Assembly (NCBI GenBank): GCA_963205275.1
Contig: CAUJIH010000047.1
Location: 1-64,000 of the forward strand
Reading direction: 5' to 3'
DNA from: Verrucomicrobiota bacterium
Lineage (GTDB): Bacteria > Verrucomicrobiota > Verrucomicrobiia > Verrucomicrobiales > DEV007
DNA: 64,000 nucleotides
Part shown: one piece after another, positions 47,889 to 59,896 of the stretch
How positions within the stretch are numbered: position 1 is the stretch's first letter
Layout: every line of letters starts with the position of its first letter
Made by a program: the position numbers and the translations under genes
The notes under the pieces: model-generated
The model's database searches: none
Told to the model about the DNA's origin: nothing
Seen by the model: only the letters and a program-made list of their open reading frames with translations

Positions 47889-47963
47889 ATCCGGAAATAG
47901 AGAATAAGCTCAAAAGCCTAGGAACCGCAAGCAAACAGAGAACTCTGAACTAGTGAAAGGAGA

Positions 47964-48116
47964 GTGGCACAGACAATCCTGTCTGTGTAGTCCTTCGATT
48001 TTAAAGGACAGGCTAGTTTGAAAGTTAGTTCGGAAAGCGGTGTCAGGCCACCGCACTCCACAGCGCTTCGCGCCGAGTGTGTCATGCACTTTAGGTGGGC
48101 CGAAGGATCTTAAGGG
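47964..48116 (+). repeat. 153-bp direct repeat, copy 1
   Basis: It matches 48166-48317 with a single one-base indel. The unit starts with GTGGCACAGACAATCCTGTC, which is a palindromic 20-mer core, and also holds CACTCCACAGCGCTTCGCGC. No protein is encoded. The gap of 585 bp between genes (47889-48473) is otherwise filled by this repeat, its second copy and AT-rich DNA. Confidence 0.9.
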
Positions 48117-48165
48117 CGGCTAGTTTCAAGATAGAATGCAGAAGTACTGGACTGGTGAAGGAAGG

Positions 48166-48317
48166 GTGGCACAGACAATCCTGTCTGTGTAGTCCTTCGA
48201 TTTTAAAGGACAGGCTAGTTTAAAGTTAGTTCGGAAAGCGGTGTCAGGCCACCGCACTCCACAGCGCTTCGCGCCGAGTGTGTCATGCACTTTAGGTGGG
48301 CCGAAGGATCTTAAGGG
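48166..48317 (+). repeat. 153-bp direct repeat, copy 2
   Basis: Second copy of the unit, 50 bp after the first. It contains the palindromic 20-mer at 48170-48189. Between the copies, GGTGGCACAGAC and TTAAGGG(C/A) flank the unit, which suggests the copies arose by duplication of a dispersed element. Confidence 0.9.
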
Positions 48318-52640: not shown

Positions 52641-52822
52641 ACCTAGACAGGATAGTGCGAGCGTACACGCGATGCACGAGATAGAAGAAAAATTTTTAGA
52701 TTTTTTGCTAGTGGATGCATAATGCTCTCGCCTGAATCGTCGAGTGAGAAGAAGATTCACTTCGTTATCCCCTATTCTGTAATTCTCTATTCTGTAATTC
52801 CCTATTCACCCTTCGCAAGCCC

Positions 52823-53053
52823 ATGACCATCCTCAGCAACGAAATCGCGCTCCTGTCGGAATTTCTCGAAAGCCTCGGACCTGAAGTTTCCGGTCACTCA
52901 GCTCAGCCGATCAATGATGAAATGAAGGAGCGAATTCGTCAATTCGCTTCCGGAAAGCTGGGACTCGCGGAGAGACAGGAAATCCTGCCCCAGATCTTGG
53001 AAAATGAGACTGCATTTCGAGCTTTGGTGAAGGCTCTACAAGGGCAGGCGTAA
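52823..53053 (+). CDS. 76-residue protein at head of GAF-subtilase cluster
   Basis: A small soluble protein with no signal peptide. Its second half (IRQFASGKLGLAERQEILPQ) recalls the helix-turn-helix-like anti-sigma or zinc-finger-lacking regulators whose consensus reads G-x-L-x-x-x-E-R-x-x-x-L. It could also be a short precursor or adaptor peptide for the following genes. No metal-binding Cys or His cluster is present. The stop is one base from the start of the GAF gene, so translation of the two is probably coupled. Confidence 0.55.
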   Translation: MTILSNEIALLSEFLESLGPEVSGHSAQPINDEMKERIRQFASGKLGLAERQEILPQILENETAFRALVKALQGQA

Positions 53054-53054
53054 T

Positions 53055-53651
53055 ATGGCAGCCGCGCATACACAGCTCCTTCGACTCCCCGGCGCAGTAG
53101 AGGCTGGTTTCTCTGTTGAACACCACTTGGAGACTTGGTTGGAAGGCTGCACGCCCGATCAGTTAATCGCATTGGTCGATACGGCGGCTCTGGCACTGAT
53201 ACGCGGAGCCTTCGCCCACGTCGGTGCCTGTGAGGGCACGATCTGGATCGCAGACCGAAAGGTAGGGGAACTCGTCGCCAGCTACAATTCAGGCGAGAAT
53301 GCTGAGGATCTAGTCGGATTTCGTCAGCCAATGGATCACGGGATCATCTCGATGGTATATGCGCAGCAGCAGCCTTATTGTGAAAATAGTATCAGTCGGG
53401 ACTCCGGACATGATGACACGCTCGACCGAAAGATCGCTAAACACACCACGGCGATGATCGCGGTTCCGTTTTATTTCGGCTTTGGTCTGCGGGGCGTGAT
53501 CTCGGCCGTTCAGTTGAGCGGTGAGGAAAAGTCCCGAGACGGATTTCGTTCAGTGGATCTCGAGTCTCTTGCTCGGGCGACTAATTTAGTCGGTCGCTTG
53601 ATCGACGGTAGTCTATTCGCTTCTCTGCTCGGCCTTGGAGATGGGATTTGA
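53055..53651 (+). CDS. GAF domain protein
   Basis: A 198-residue protein. The C-terminal two-thirds fit a GAF sensor domain: GTIWIADRKVGELVASYNSG near 72-91, HGIISMVYAQQQPYCENS and FGLRGVISAVQL at about 143-154. The first 45 residues are helical (HLETWLEGCTPDQLIALVDT). There is no output domain, so it probably senses a ligand or redox state and acts on a partner. It begins one base after the 76-residue ORF and overlaps the subtilase by 11 bp. Confidence 0.8.
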   Translation: MAAAHTQLLRLPGAVEAGFSVEHHLETWLEGCTPDQLIALVDTAALALIRGAFAHVGACEGTIWIADRKVGELVASYNSGENAEDLVGFRQPMDHGIISMVYAQQQPYCENSISRDSGHDDTLDRKIAKHTTAMIAVPFYFGFGLRGVISAVQLSGEEKSRDGFRSVDLESLARATNLVGRLIDGSLFASLLGLGDGI

Positions 53652-54444
53652 TGCACGGATTTCTTGGCCCAGTCTCGATCAAGCGCGACAGGCTCTGGCC
53701 AGTGGTGATGGATCAGGAGTCAAAGTAGCGATCATCGACTCCGGGATAGATGTCACACATCCCATGCTCGCAGGACTCGAACTGGCGGATGAAGTCAGCG
53801 TCTCTTGCGACGGACTCAGTCTGAGGGTCGAAGAAGATTCGGGAGGTGATCTGTTCGGACATGGGACAGCCGTGAGTAGTCTGTTCCGCAAAATCGCTCC
53901 GGGAGCGACGATTGGCAGTTTCCGTGCTCTCGATAGCAGTAATCAGGCACGGAACTTCGTCATCGCCGAGTGCGTGAATCAGGCGATTTCGAGGGGCTAT
54001 CAGGTGATCAATTGTAGCTTCGGGTGTCGTGGTCTTACTCGATACGTGATGGATTATAAGGAATGGGTAGATCGAGCTTATCTGGAGGGTGTTCACGTGG
54101 TGGCTGCATGTAGTAATCTCGATCCCTCGATCCGAGAATGGCCGGCCTTTTTCCCCAGTGTGATCAGTGTGAGAGGTATCGATTGCCCCTCTCACGATTT
54201 TTATTACCAGTCCGGTCAGATGGTCTCCTTCCTCGCACGGGGCGAGCAGGTGGAGGTTCCCTGGCTAGGAGGCGGGACAAAGATTGAAACAGGTAGCAGC
54301 TATGCTGCACCTTTGATTTCCGGATGGATTGCTCGAATTCTCTCTGCTCTGCCCGACCTCAATCCCGCTTCCCTAAAACCTCTACTCGCCGAGCTTGCGA
54401 AGAGTTATTCAGAGAATGAGAAGAATTTTGAATATTTCTCATAA
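53641..54444 (+). CDS. Subtilisin-like serine protease, no signal peptide
   Basis: A 267-residue S8 family peptidase. The catalytic triad is D33 (IIDSGIDVTHP), H74 (FGHGTAVSS) and S220 (TGSSYAAPLISG), with oxyanion-hole N159 (ACSN). There is no signal peptide, pro-domain or transport sequence, so it should act in the cytoplasm. Start ATG 53641 was preferred over TTG 53635. It overlaps the GAF gene by 11 bp. Cytoplasmic subtilases occur in maturation of modified peptides and in some regulated-proteolysis systems; the substrate here is unknown. Confidence 0.9.
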   Translation: MGFDARISWPSLDQARQALASGDGSGVKVAIIDSGIDVTHPMLAGLELADEVSVSCDGLSLRVEEDSGGDLFGHGTAVSSLFRKIAPGATIGSFRALDSSNQARNFVIAECVNQAISRGYQVINCSFGCRGLTRYVMDYKEWVDRAYLEGVHVVAACSNLDPSIREWPAFFPSVISVRGIDCPSHDFYYQSGQMVSFLARGEQVEVPWLGGGTKIETGSSYAAPLISGWIARILSALPDLNPASLKPLLAELAKSYSENEKNFEYFS

Positions 54445-54458
54445 AAAACTAGATTTCT

Positions 54459-54499
54459 TATTAATTGTAAAATAAACTTAATTAAATTTACAATTAATA
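54459..54499. promoter_or_regulatory. AT-rich hairpin before the RRE-like gene
   Basis: TATTAATTGTAAA at 54459-54471 and TTTACAATTAATA at 54487-54499 form a perfect 13-bp inverted repeat around a 15-nt loop. All bases except two pairs are A or T. It is just upstream of the start of the following gene and right after the subtilase stop. It may bind a regulator or set differential expression. Confidence 0.5.
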
Positions 54500-54503
54500 T
54501 AAT

Positions 54504-55601
54504 TTGAATACTCGCGCCTTAGAAAAGCTGGAAGAGATCTTCCCCTTGCGTCTCCGCCTCCGAGAGGAGATGAAGTTTTTCCAAATCGGAGATTTCGTTG
54601 TGGCTGAACGTAAGGCAACTGGACAGAAATACACTCTAAGGCCGTGGCAGTACGAACTGCTGGCATTACTCAATGGCACGGTCACATTTCGCGATGCTTC
54701 AAAATCGATCTATTCACAGCATCACGGGACTTTCACAACGAGCGGCCTGCTCAATTTCTATCGATGGCTGTACGATGAGAATCTCGTGGAGTGCGTGTGT
54801 GATTCGATCTATCAGTTGACTCCCGAATACGAGTCTCCTTTTACTCTTTCTCTACTCGATGCTCCTGATGCAGAGTCGAAAGTGAACGAAAATACATCTT
54901 TTTTCGTGCCCGATGAAACAGCATCGCAAAAACCTCTTTCCTTTCCGAATTTGGAAGATCAGGTCGCATACGAGCTGTGGGATGATTCCGATGAAGAGGG
55001 TAGTCTTGGCAAGAATGCTCACCCTGAGTCAATCGAGACTTTTGAGGTAGATGGAGCGATAGATCGATTTCTGAATTTCACCGGGAAGGTTATTCATAAG
55101 CCCGCGATGCGTCGCTCTCTGATAATTATAGCGGGACTGGCATTTCTTCTATCGGTGATTCGCATCGCACACGTGACCTCTCCACTTTTTGAGCCTGTGG
55201 GACAGCGTTTGGCGATCATGTTTTTACCGAAATCTGAGGTCGTGACCGTAGTTGCCTCAGAGCGAACCGCTGCATCGCCGACGGTAGATCGTGTCGCCCC
55301 GGCGGCGCGTGTGGATGAATCGATGAAAGAAAAGGCTCAGGCACAGCCCCAACCTGCTCCGTCAGCGAATACTCGTTCCTCAGAAGAATTGCCCTCGACG
55401 CAGAGTGCTCCACAGCCCCCAGCTATGAATCCGCAAGCGCAGACGCTCGACAAAATCACGACCCTCCGCGCACAATTGGAGGAATGTCGCATCCGCCGGG
55501 ACGAGTATTATCTGCAAAATGATGAGGCTGGATATCGCCGCGAAGTGCATCGAATGACGGGCCTCGCCAACGAGATCGGCGAGATCGAAAACGGACTCTA
55601 G
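54504..55601 (+). CDS. PqqD/RRE-like membrane protein with coiled-coil tail
   Basis: A 365-residue protein. Residues 28-100 (GDFVVAERKATGQKYTLRPW, then LLALLNGTVTFRDASKSIY) look like the winged-helix fold of PqqD/RiPP-recognition elements; this is an inference from pattern. Residues 110-195 are acidic and low in structure. A transmembrane helix lies at 205-224 (SLIIIAGLAFLLSVIRIAHV). Then comes a Pro/Ser/Ala-rich linker and a coiled coil at 313-363 (LDKITTLRAQLEECRIRRDE). This layout recalls truncated HlyD-type secretion adaptors. The TTG start at 54504 is uncertain; ATG 54570 is an alternative. Confidence 0.55.
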   Translation: MNTRALEKLEEIFPLRLRLREEMKFFQIGDFVVAERKATGQKYTLRPWQYELLALLNGTVTFRDASKSIYSQHHGTFTTSGLLNFYRWLYDENLVECVCDSIYQLTPEYESPFTLSLLDAPDAESKVNENTSFFVPDETASQKPLSFPNLEDQVAYELWDDSDEEGSLGKNAHPESIETFEVDGAIDRFLNFTGKVIHKPAMRRSLIIIAGLAFLLSVIRIAHVTSPLFEPVGQRLAIMFLPKSEVVTVVASERTAASPTVDRVAPAARVDESMKEKAQAQPQPAPSANTRSSEELPSTQSAPQPPAMNPQAQTLDKITTLRAQLEECRIRRDEYYLQNDEAGYRREVHRMTGLANEIGEIENGL

Positions 55602-55707
55602 GCAGCGATTTGAGCTGCAGCTCTGAGTTCGTATCGCGTATCCAATCCCCTGATTGCGGCTTCAAGAGAGCTTGAACAACCCCTCTCTTCTGGGCTTTGA
55701 TGGAGAG

Positions 55708-57063
55708 ATGACACGCTCTCTTCTCTGTTTAATTCTCATTCTCTCTGTCTCTCTCGCGAACGCAGATTCCGTATGGAAGGCCGGAGCCGCCTCCATCGTG
55801 ATCACCCCCAGTGAGCCGATCTGGATGGCGGGCTATGGCGGACGAAAGGCACCGGCAGAAGGAAAGGAAACCGAACTGCACGCGAAGGCGCTCGTTCTGG
55901 AGGATGCGGAAGGACATAGGGGATTGATCATGACTTTGGACTTGGTGGGGATTGATCGCGGCATGACAGGACGCATCACTGCCGCACTGGAGGAAAAATA
56001 TGGACTCGCACGCGATGCGATCACTTTCTGCACCTCACACACACACTCTGGCCCCGCCCTGCCGGGAACTCTGGCACCATTGCATTATGTAGTGCTAGAG
56101 CCGGAGATGCAGAAGAAGATCGACCACTACGCCGACGAACTGTTTCAGAAGACGGTAGAAGTCACGGGACAAGCCATCGCATCGATGGCTCCGGCACGAC
56201 TCCAGTGGGGCAGCGGGAAAGCGACTTTCGCTGTGAATCGCCGGGAAAACAAAGAGAAGGACGTGCCTGAGCTGCGTGATCGTGGTGTGCTCAAAGGCCC
56301 CGTAAATCACGACCTCCCCGTCCTCTCCGTGAGAGGCGAGGATGGAGCGATTCGGGCGATCCTCTTCGGCTATGCCTGTCACGCCACGACTTTGGGATTC
56401 CAAACCTGGAATGCCGACTACCCCGGCTACGCTCAGGCGGCTTTGGAAAAGCAGTACCCCGGAGCTGTGGCGCTCTTCTGGCAAGGCTGCGGGGCCGATC
56501 AGAATCCCTTGCCCCGACGTGTACTAGAGCTGGCCGGGCATTATGGAACCGAACTCGCAGACCGCGTGGTCGATGTGCTGGCCGCCCCGATGACTCCGGT
56601 TGCTCCGACTTTGAGCCATGCCTATGAAGAGATCGAGGCGCCGCTTGATCCGGTGCCAACAGAGGCAGCGCTGAAGGAAACTTTGAATTCCGATCAGAAA
56701 TACGAGGCAGCACGAGCAAAGTATCTGCTCCAGAAGATCGAGAAAGAAGGACCTCTCAAGAACTTCTATCCCTATCCGATCGCTGTTTGGAAACTGGGCG
56801 ACGAGGTGGACTTCATCTTTCTCGGTGGCGAAGTCGTGGTCGATTACGTGAATCGCCTGACGCGGGAGAGATGCGGCACCGCCACTTGGGTCGCGAGCTA
56901 TAGCAATGATGTTATGGCCTATATCCCCTCGTTGCGAGTGCTGAAGGAAGGTGGATACGAAGGAGGCGGCTCCAATCCCATCTACGGTCTCCCTTCCCTG
57001 TGGCATGAGAGCATCGAAGAGGTGATCATCTCCAGCGTTCATCGGATCGGTGGAGGAAAATGA
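55708..57063 (+). CDS. Secreted ceramidase-like protein (tandem copy 1)
   Basis: A 451-residue exported protein with signal peptide (MTRSLLCLILILSVSLANAD). The neutral-ceramidase-like domain opens WKAGAASIVITPSEPIWMAG and has the zinc-binding SHTHSGPALPGTL, AVNRRENKE, GYACHATTLG and FWQGCGADQNPLPRR. It is shorter than classic ceramidases and lacks their C-terminal domain. Frame starts at 55654 but ATG 55708 gives the signal peptide. The following gene is nearly identical over long stretches, evidence of a recent tandem duplication or gene conversion. The substrate is unknown. Confidence 0.87.
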   Translation: MTRSLLCLILILSVSLANADSVWKAGAASIVITPSEPIWMAGYGGRKAPAEGKETELHAKALVLEDAEGHRGLIMTLDLVGIDRGMTGRITAALEEKYGLARDAITFCTSHTHSGPALPGTLAPLHYVVLEPEMQKKIDHYADELFQKTVEVTGQAIASMAPARLQWGSGKATFAVNRRENKEKDVPELRDRGVLKGPVNHDLPVLSVRGEDGAIRAILFGYACHATTLGFQTWNADYPGYAQAALEKQYPGAVALFWQGCGADQNPLPRRVLELAGHYGTELADRVVDVLAAPMTPVAPTLSHAYEEIEAPLDPVPTEAALKETLNSDQKYEAARAKYLLQKIEKEGPLKNFYPYPIAVWKLGDEVDFIFLGGEVVVDYVNRLTRERCGTATWVASYSNDVMAYIPSLRVLKEGGYEGGGSNPIYGLPSLWHESIEEVIISSVHRIGGGK

Positions 57064-57155
57064 GACATCGATCACTCTGATCTAATCTTCGCATCCCCTG
57101 ATCACGCCCGTCAGAAGCGGTGGAAGAATCACGTTTTCCGAAGTTTGCTTAGCCC

Positions 57156-59477
57156 ATGATTCGTAACGCTTTCTACCTCTCTGCGCTCCTGAGTGCCACG
57201 CTCCTGCATGCCGAGCCAACTTGGAAGGCCGGAGCCGCCGCCATCGTGATCACCCCCAGCGAGCCGATTTGGATGTCTGGTTATGCCGCTCGCACTGCTC
57301 CGGCGGCAGGGAAAGAGACCGACGTATTCGCGAAAGCCCTCGCTCTAGAAGATGCTACGGGAAACCGAGGCCTGATCATGACACTCGATCTCGTGGGAAT
57401 TGATCGTGGGATGACGGGGCGGATCGCGAAGGTGCTGAAGGAAAAATATGGACTCTCTCGCGATTCGATCACCTTCTGCACCTCTCACACGCACAGCGGA
57501 CCGGCTCTTCCAGGAACTCTGGCTCCGCTGCACTACATCCAGATGGAACCGGAAATGCAGAAGAAGATTGAGGCCTACGCTGAGGAATTGCTACGAAAAA
57601 CGGTGGAAGTCACGGGACAGGCGATCGCAGCCATGGCTCCGGCTCGGCTTCAGTGGGGCAGTGGGAAGACCACTTTCGCCGTCAATCGACGTGAAAATAA
57701 GGGAGTCAATGTGCCGGAATTACGCAATCTAGGCGAATTGAAGGGCCCTGTGAATCACGATGTTCCCGTCTTATCTGTACGCGGCATGGATGGTTCGATC
57801 CGCGCCGTCCTCTGCGGCTACGCCTGCCATGCGACGACGCTGGGCGATCAGACGTGGAATGCCGACTACCCCGGCTACGCTCAGGCGGCTTTGGAAAAGC
57901 AGTATCCGGGAGCTGTGGCGCTCTTTTGGCAGGGCTGCGGAGCCGATCAAAACCCCATCCCGAGAAAGGAGTTAGCTCTGGCCGAGCACTACGGTGCCGA
58001 ACTGGCAGGACGAGTGATCGATGTGCTGAATGCTCCGATGACAGTTATCCCCCCTGCTTTGTCCCATGCCTATCAGGAGATCGATGCCCCGCTCGACCCC
58101 GTACCGACAGAAGAGGAGTTAAAAGAGACTCTGAAGTCTGATCAGAAATACGAGGTAGCACGAGCAAAGTATCTGCTGCAGAAGATCGAGAAAGAAGGTC
58201 CGCTCAGAGCCTCCTACCCCTATCCGATCGCGGTATGGAATCTCGGCGGCGAGGTGGACTTCATCTTTCTCGGCGGTGAAGTCGTAGTCGATTACGTGAA
58301 TCGCCTGACCAAAGAGCGACATGGACTCGCTACCTGGGTCGCCAGCTACAGCAATGATGTGATGGCCTACATCCCATCGCTTCGGGTACTAAAAGAAGGT
58401 GGCTACGAAGGTGGGCTGTCGAATGTCTATTACGGCCTCCCGGCATTATGGAGTGAGAATATCGAAGAAACCATCGTATCTGGCGTTCACCGCCTCGGAG
58501 CTGTTCGCGGTTATCCGGCTCCCGTTCGCGAGGTTTATTACCCGGTGCCAGAGGACGGCAGCATGCAGCCGACACTCTTCTGGTCACCGGATCTTCCGGC
58601 GGGAGAAAAGGCACCCTTGCTCGTATGCTTTCACACCTGGTCCGATAACTATCTGCAAGCCGGAGGAGAGGCGAAGTATGCAGAATGGTGTCTGAAGAAC
58701 GGCTGGATTTTTCTTCATCCCAATTTTCGTGGACCGAACTCTACCCCCGAGGCAATGGGTTCCGATCTCGCCATCGCCGACATTCGCGCCGCCGTAGAAT
58801 GGGCCAAGTCACACGCACCCGTCGATGTGGATCGCATTTACGCCGTCGGAGCCTCAGGTGGCGGGCACATGGCAGAACTGGTCGCGGGTCGACTTCCTGA
58901 TATCTGGGCCGGAGTGTCTGCATGGGTTGGCATTTCCGACATCGCCGCTTGGCACGCTGACACCACAGCCGCGAAGCGAGGGGGCTACGCGACGAATATC
59001 GAGTCCGCTCTCGGTGGTTCTCCCGCCGACTCCGATCAACGAAGGGCCGATGCCGCCCATCGTTCTCCCCTGTCCTGGCTAGAAAATGCGAAGGGCGTGC
59101 CACTCGATATCAATCACGGCGTGGACGACGGACGCAGTGGGAGTGTGCCCTTTACCCATTCCCTGCGAGCCTTCAATAAGGTCGCTGCCGAGTCGGATCG
59201 AATTCCCGAACAGGAACTGAGTGACTGGTATGCGGATCCTCAAACTCTGCCTAGAGATGAAAAGCTGAACGATCCCCTCTACTGCAACAATCCACCACTG
59301 TATCGAAAGACCAGCGGAAACAGTCGTGTAACGATCTTCCAGGGAGGCCATCAAATCATACATCAAGCCGCATTGAATTGGCTGGCTGCACAGCGGAAAG
59401 GACATCCCGCGAATTGGAGTCCTACGAAGGTCACTGATCTTCAGACGACAGAAGATGATCGTGCCAGCGGAAAGTGA
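57156..59477 (+). CDS. Ceramidase-like domain fused to alpha/beta hydrolase (tandem copy 2)
   Basis: A 773-residue exported protein. Residues 20-450 duplicate the previous gene (SHTHSGPALPGTL, GYACHATTLG, FWQGCGADQNPIPRK). From about 460 a prolyl-oligopeptidase-type alpha/beta hydrolase follows: APLLVCFHTWSDNY, FLHPNFRGPN, nucleophile S567 in GASGGGHMAE, acid D657 or D658 (GVDDGRSG) and H732 (GGHQIIHQ). The fusion suggests a two-step action on one substrate, e.g. cleavage by the first domain and deacylation by the second. Copy 1 has only the first domain. Confidence 0.85.
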   Translation: MIRNAFYLSALLSATLLHAEPTWKAGAAAIVITPSEPIWMSGYAARTAPAAGKETDVFAKALALEDATGNRGLIMTLDLVGIDRGMTGRIAKVLKEKYGLSRDSITFCTSHTHSGPALPGTLAPLHYIQMEPEMQKKIEAYAEELLRKTVEVTGQAIAAMAPARLQWGSGKTTFAVNRRENKGVNVPELRNLGELKGPVNHDVPVLSVRGMDGSIRAVLCGYACHATTLGDQTWNADYPGYAQAALEKQYPGAVALFWQGCGADQNPIPRKELALAEHYGAELAGRVIDVLNAPMTVIPPALSHAYQEIDAPLDPVPTEEELKETLKSDQKYEVARAKYLLQKIEKEGPLRASYPYPIAVWNLGGEVDFIFLGGEVVVDYVNRLTKERHGLATWVASYSNDVMAYIPSLRVLKEGGYEGGLSNVYYGLPALWSENIEETIVSGVHRLGAVRGYPAPVREVYYPVPEDGSMQPTLFWSPDLPAGEKAPLLVCFHTWSDNYLQAGGEAKYAEWCLKNGWIFLHPNFRGPNSTPEAMGSDLAIADIRAAVEWAKSHAPVDVDRIYAVGASGGGHMAELVAGRLPDIWAGVSAWVGISDIAAWHADTTAAKRGGYATNIESALGGSPADSDQRRADAAHRSPLSWLENAKGVPLDINHGVDDGRSGSVPFTHSLRAFNKVAAESDRIPEQELSDWYADPQTLPRDEKLNDPLYCNNPPLYRKTSGNSRVTIFQGGHQIIHQAALNWLAAQRKGHPANWSPTKVTDLQTTEDDRASGK

Positions 59478-59644: not shown

Positions 59645-59896
59645 ATGGCCAGTCAAGCGGATGTTTCGAAGATCTACGGGAAGATTAAGTGGGTGGACAA
59701 TTTCCCTGATTTCAAGGTAAAGATTGTCGAAAATTTTGCCGATTTACACGTCCAGATCGTAGGACATTTTCCCAACGCTCCCGGTCAGTGGCAATTTGTG
59801 GAGAACTTCCCCGATTTCAAAATCAAGCGCGTCGATAGCTTTCCCGACTTTACGATCAAATTCGTGGATCATTTTCCCGGCCCGCAGCGAAAGTAA
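59645..59896 (+). CDS. Micro-repeat protein (FPDF repeats)
   Basis: An 83-residue protein with no signal peptide. It is made of about six 11-residue repeats with pattern [FL]-x-[VI]-x-[IF]-V-[DE]-x-F-P-D, for example FKVKIVENFAD, QWQFVENFPD, FKIKRVDSFPD and FTIKFVDHFPG. Alternating hydrophobic residues suggest a small beta-rich repeat or solenoid. A good Shine-Dalgarno-like AGAGGAAAG lies 6 bases before the ATG. Its 3' end overlaps the convergent PepSY gene by 41 bp. Similar repeat proteins are known but have no assigned role. Confidence 0.75.
   Translation: MASQADVSKIYGKIKWVDNFPDFKVKIVENFADLHVQIVGHFPNAPGQWQFVENFPDFKIKRVDSFPDFTIKFVDHFPGPQRK

Follow-up and report, generated by a model that had tools for sequence, protein, structure and literature searches.

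The stretch of DNA analysed here (64,000 nucleotides, hereafter the window) lies at the beginning of contig C47 in a draft genome of 4.08 Mb, the named relatives of which, as identified by sequence, are uncultured Verrucomicrobiales/Akkermansiaceae MAGs. Four adjacent genes and the sequences around them make up the locus described below.

52716..52741, + strand: ECF-like promoter TGCATAA-N15-CGTC, 5' of gene 1; sole match in the window, conserved and recurring
52823..53053, + strand: gene 1, helical protein of 76 aa, predicted to be a soluble anti-sigma factor lacking a zinc motif
53055..53651, + strand: gene 2, GAF-domain protein, predicted ligand sensor (Pfam GAF_2, weak profile matches)
53641..54444, + strand: gene 3, S8 subtilase with D33/H74/S220, predicted to be cytoplasmic (Pfam Peptidase_S8, invariant triad)
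54445..54503, + strand: AT-rich intergenic region of 59 bp separating gene 3 from gene 4; contains an inverted repeat
54504..55601, + strand: gene 4, combining an RRE-like domain with a single membrane helix and a helical hairpin (structure model and fold search)

All four open reading frames lie where the original prediction had placed them. The 1-bp gap between genes 1 and 2 (53053/53055) was confirmed, as was the 11-bp overlap of the GAF and subtilase genes, given the ATG start of the subtilase at 53641; its longest reading frame begins at a TTG at 53635. The last junction, which had been counted among the tight ones, did not stand, as genes 3 and 4 are 59 bp apart (54444/54504). The start codon of gene 4 is TTG. 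Genes 1–3 are without an evident signal peptide or membrane segment, as judged from the sequence.

The order gene 1-2-3 is kept in all the closest loci that were compared, and gene 4 is present in most of them. In most relatives, the block has an SMC-type gene on one side and a PHP-domain gene on the other. The flanks in the window are different: from translations only, a D-Ala-D-Ala carboxypeptidase-like gene lies upstream, and downstream (55654-59477) there are two ceramidase-like genes in tandem, of which the second encodes an additional hydrolase-like region at the C-terminus. The trio of genes 1–3 and gene 4 stay together in the window genome despite the changed flanking genes, and since these flanks are unlike those of the relatives, the block has been held together through a relocation. 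The trio is well supported as a conserved module. Of the four-gene neighbourhood that had been proposed, genes 1–3 are regular neighbours, while gene 4 is not always found with them; the conserved, poorly described unit expected among these genes consists of the trio. Our literature search found no description of this gene combination; the main ECF reclassification was outside its coverage, and an earlier description is possible.

Gene 3 matches Pfam Peptidase_S8 (4.7e-25). Its catalytic triad (D33, H74 and S220) and the oxyanion residue N159 are intact, and the D, H and S residues are invariant in 69 of 69 homologues. No signal peptide is visible, which together with the intact triad agrees with what had been read from the sequence earlier, and the N-terminus is too short for the usual propeptide. 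The enzyme looks active and cytoplasmic. The nearest curated families by score are QhpE (82.5 bits against a cut-off of 165), PatA (40.5 against 421) and mycosin (92.8 against 279), all cut-offs being missed widely, and no gene context matching the QhpE, PatA/PatG or mycosin subtilases is present at the window locus. The match of gene 2 to Pfam GAF_2 (E 7.5e-5, 23.4 bits) is under the curated cut-off of 28.6, and its profile gave weak matches to GAF structures; a distant homologue, at L072, passes the GAF cut-off. About 47 residues are invariant across 27 relatives of gene 2, which suggests a conserved pocket in this GAF family.

For gene 1, sequence profiles found no family and no match to an anti-sigma family model. 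Profile matches to TAL-effector and spike were dismissed as repeat/helix noise. The predicted fold consists of four helices, and its top three structural matches are anti-sigma domains (RslA, SigK partner and DdvA), with low Z-scores of 4.4, 3.2 and 2.5, respectively. The HX3CX2C zinc motif, optional in class I anti-sigma factors, is absent from gene 1, and the 76-aa window protein has zero cysteines; zinc-free class I anti-sigma factors are known (PMC7406223). In the family alignment, close relatives are 72-75 aa long from the conserved start, and conservation extends up to the last helix. A RiPP precursor was ruled out for gene 1, as the protein is conserved to its C-terminus and has no core region. 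Since the fold scores are low and the sequence profiles gave no family, the putative anti-sigma activity is assigned mainly on the basis of gene position, protein size and co-occurrence, and the fold lends support.

The gene 1 profile is present in 68 of the 289 genomes of the order. We fetched 34 loci from outside the window's genus and its nearest relatives, and observed the following. An ECF-type sigma gene lies directly 5' of gene 1 on the same strand in 28 of these loci; a GAF gene is nearby in 27 and a subtilase gene in 24, and all four genes occur together in 21. Their arrangement varies. A single sigma-gene 1-GAF-subtilase operon is present at, for example, L116, L120 and L121, while the sigma-gene 1 pair is convergent with GAF-subtilase at others (e.g. 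L134, L135 and L143) and divergent from it at L124 and L128. L126, L127, L136, L142 and L249 have the sigma gene and gene 1 with no nearby GAF or subtilase gene. Within the window's genus, the sigma gene is found ~9-20 kb upstream on the same strand where the contigs are long enough, and in this genome it is on another contig (C108:29788-30477), unlinked to the trio. The sigma gene has moved away from gene 1 in this genus. The subtilase and sigma trees agree in placing the genus next to lineages in which the genes are linked (L112, L113 and L116).

The identity of the partner as an ECF factor follows from its domain content, as it has sigma regions 2 and 4 but lacks region 3. At L116, the Pfam matches were 5.4e-8 for Sigma70_r2 and 2.5e-4 for r4_2, and those at other loci were weaker. 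Compared with solved structures, the profile of the sigma family matched sigma factors only, nearly all of them ECF, over positions 12-204 of 237.

The sigma factor, like gene 1, was found in 68 of the 289 genomes, 62 of which are common to both (co-occurrence probabilities for this set ignore relatedness). Outside the genus, the sigma factor occurs in 37 genomes and gene 1 in 39, with 34 in common; counted by genus, the figures are 17 and 16 of 50, with 15 in common. A separate phylum-wide draw gave the same result, both being present in an identical set of five among 388 genomes. Two of these five belong to other orders, and gene 1 lies 3' of the sigma gene in both; at one of these loci (L250), the GAF and subtilase genes are present and convergent with sigma-gene 1, and at the other (L249) they are missing. 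Since gene 1 is paired with an ECF sigma gene throughout the order and has no variable core, its product is far more likely to be an anti-sigma-type regulator than a peptide precursor.

The sequence TGCATAA-N15-CGTC at 52716-52741 has no second match anywhere in the window (0.06 matches expected). CGTC is a usual -10 element of ECF promoters. The pattern TGCAT[A/G]N-N13-17-CGTC was found within 200 bp 5' of gene 1 in 25 of 30 distinct regions from the genus, compared to 0.03 in shuffles. This genome alone showed no enrichment of the strict pattern (6 matches versus 4 in controls), so relatives were compared: in ten genomes there were 33 matches, and the reversed control gave 13. The pattern lies shortly 5' of genes for homologous secreted Gly/Tyr-rich small proteins in four genomes (L223, L224, L229 and L239), and in three (L191, which is from this genome, L226 and L227) it lies 5' of genes for glycine-zipper-type lipoproteins. 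The lipoprotein gene of L191 is 54 bp 3' of the promoter site, and L191 alone passes a Pfam cut-off. The pattern predicts a small, putative envelope-type regulon. No clear TGCATAA/CGTC element is present in the upstream region of the sigma gene itself in the window's genus; judged by eye, a similar sequence is present at L121, L122 and L125. We also observed that a SPASM-type gene (C59:34465, a 421-aa frame; L213, G000:C59:25000-40000), the sole one detected in this genome, is ~4.4 kb away from C59:30088, where the promoter pattern matches 5' of a gene for a secreted-looking protein.

ECF sigma factors are a main bacterial route from signal to transcription, and in the well-known proteolytic ECF route, membrane proteases read signals from outside the cytoplasm. 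With conserved linkage, co-occurrence, the identity of the sigma factor, an intact protease and a conserved, recurring promoter established computationally, we propose, with a probability of roughly 55%, that genes 1–3 are the regulatory end of an ECF sigma switch in which the subtilase cuts the gene 1 product. The 76-aa protein, as a soluble zinc-less anti-sigma factor, would hold the ECF-type sigma factor (C108:29788-30477 in this genome). The GAF protein would sense a small cytoplasmic ligand and control the co-encoded subtilase, which, once active, would cut the anti-sigma factor and thereby free the sigma factor. The latter would then transcribe the trio from the TGCATAA-N15-CGTC promoter, and also genes for small secreted or lipoprotein envelope proteins that have the same type of promoter. 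The anti-sigma activity, the reading of this promoter by the sigma factor, the ligand and the control exerted through the GAF protein, the substrate of the protease and the direction of the response are what we infer in this scheme. Our best guess is that ligand-controlled cleavage, which had been suggested earlier, acts on a regulatory protein. More broadly, and tentatively, since we put it at somewhat less than an even chance, these genes may represent a wholly cytoplasmic one-step proteolysis switch, in which a ligand would gate a GAF-subtilase pair that destroys a soluble anti-sigma factor lacking zinc, and which would be widespread in Verrucomicrobiales and present in other orders. If true, this would add an internal, ligand-gated route to ECF sigma control in Verrucomicrobiota, a phylum with little-known envelope regulation. 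The predicted promoter and target genes make the switch directly testable.

The proposed switch has features in common with known systems. As in ECF systems with soluble class I anti-sigma factors of the ChrR or RshA type, there is a small soluble partner, encoded together with the ECF-type sigma factor, with a helical predicted fold; unlike in those systems, this partner has no zinc motif, and its gene is accompanied by those for a GAF protein and a dedicated cytoplasmic subtilase. The mechanisms that a review (PMC8999054) gives for soluble anti-sigma factors do not include a GAF protein with a subtilase. The idea that the sigma factor is freed by destroying its inhibitor, proposed here, is shared with the proteolysis of membrane anti-sigma factors of the RseA/RsiV type. 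However, the conserved unit includes neither a membrane protein nor a membrane protease, and the cleavage in our case is predicted.

The same sigma module could also work with another regulatory target or in the other direction, the GAF-controlled subtilase destroying the sigma factor and the gene 1 product serving as an adaptor or protector. Linkage and co-occurrence fit this arrangement equally well. Proteolysis of an ECF sigma factor has been shown for AntA/ClpXP, and in the ECF54 type a subtilase is encoded near the sigma factor, as it is here (PMC8999054). However, ECF54 is described as having no anti-sigma factor and is accompanied by carboxypeptidase and CHAT proteins (PMC8999054), whereas the present linkage involves an anti-sigma-like protein and a GAF protein, and gene 1 resembles anti-sigma factors by its size, position and fold. 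We consider this alternative unlikely, and retain cleavage of the gene 1 product as the preferred reading.

The structure model of gene 4 has an N-terminal domain predicted with confidence, together with a membrane helix and a C-terminal helical hairpin. In Foldseek searches, the N-terminal domain matched RRE domains best (TbiB1, with ThcOx lower down), and it compares to PqqD with a Z-score of 7.1, winged-helix-like domains of other enzymes scoring alike. Structure prediction and fold search agree with the RRE/PqqD-like N-terminus noted earlier, at the level of the fold only. As non-RRE matches (GdmN and methyltransferases) score as high as the RREs, the fold alone is no proof of peptide binding by gene 4. 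Homologues of gene 4 in nearby genera carry lipoyl/HlyD domains, so the protein looks like a reduced membrane-fusion protein, although Pfam detected no lipoyl domain in gene 4 of the window. L205, L206, L208 and L209, from neighbouring genera, encode HlyD-type membrane-fusion proteins, the N-terminal domain of which is related to that of gene 4.

Gene 4 was found next to the PHP gene without the trio at L202, L203, L211 and L212, and was unlinked to the trio in three genomes (G004, G005 and G024). It was not found in G031 and G020, two genomes that are >90% complete and keep the trio. In relatives, the gap between genes 3 and 4 contains a conserved promoter-like tGGAC...TATAAT; the RNA fold z for 54430-54520 in the window is -2.3. 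Judging from the copies beside the PHP gene, the trio genomes without gene 4 and the promoter-like gap, gene 4 looks like an independent neighbour outside the conserved unit, to which it may have been recruited. Gene 4 as an essential fourth part was dropped for the conserved unit, as it is unlinked or missing in several genomes.

The same distribution bears on a possible genus-specific role of gene 4 in the switch, in which its RRE-like domain would tether the gene 1 product or another trio protein to the membrane and couple an envelope signal to it. Gene 4 does lie 3' of the trio in most members of the genus, and in the window genome the two are together though the other flanks differ. We nevertheless regard such a role as improbable, in view of the promoter-like element of its own in relatives, the other locations beside the PHP gene and the two fairly complete genomes that keep the trio without it. 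Least probable is the four-gene scheme of the original prediction, in which the RRE-like domain of gene 4 binds a peptide that the subtilase cuts and that is exported: it draws on that domain, on related GAF-subtilase pairs in RiPP gene clusters and on the distant likeness of the subtilase to QhpE and PatA-type maturation proteases, but gene 4 is separable from the trio and located elsewhere in several genomes, gene 1 has no variable core and lies 3' of a sigma gene elsewhere, and neither a precursor nor a modifying enzyme is present among the conserved neighbours of the window locus.

GAF-subtilase pairs were also observed in two other groups. In the second group (L056-L061, L063, L065 and L075; e.g. 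L056:8092-10739), the pair is followed by a YkuD L,D-transpeptidase with a long N-terminal extension, and there is no sigma factor or gene 1. The third group, consisting of distant pairs (L068, L069, L071 and L072; e.g. L072:3112-11384), is monophyletic in the subtilase tree and occurs in apparent RiPP clusters together with a GrrM/OscB-type radical SAM enzyme, an MNIO enzyme, an ABC exporter and a FIST protein. These clusters also contain a 133-aa candidate precursor with a Cys/Trp/His-rich C-terminus. GAF or subtilase partners are not mentioned in a published MNIO survey. Peptide cleavage would be a natural role in the RiPP-cluster branch, and the earlier peptide idea thus fits that branch better than the window locus. 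On the tentative broader reading given above, the occurrence of the pair next to L,D-transpeptidases as well as in RiPP clusters would make it a general ligand-controlled protease cassette.

Elsewhere in the window, two near-identical copies of ~170 bp (92-99%) are present at 47945-48317 with a spacing of 201-202 bp, and an 83-aa open reading frame at 59645-59896 is made of repeats like VDNFPDFKVKIVENFADLHVQIV.
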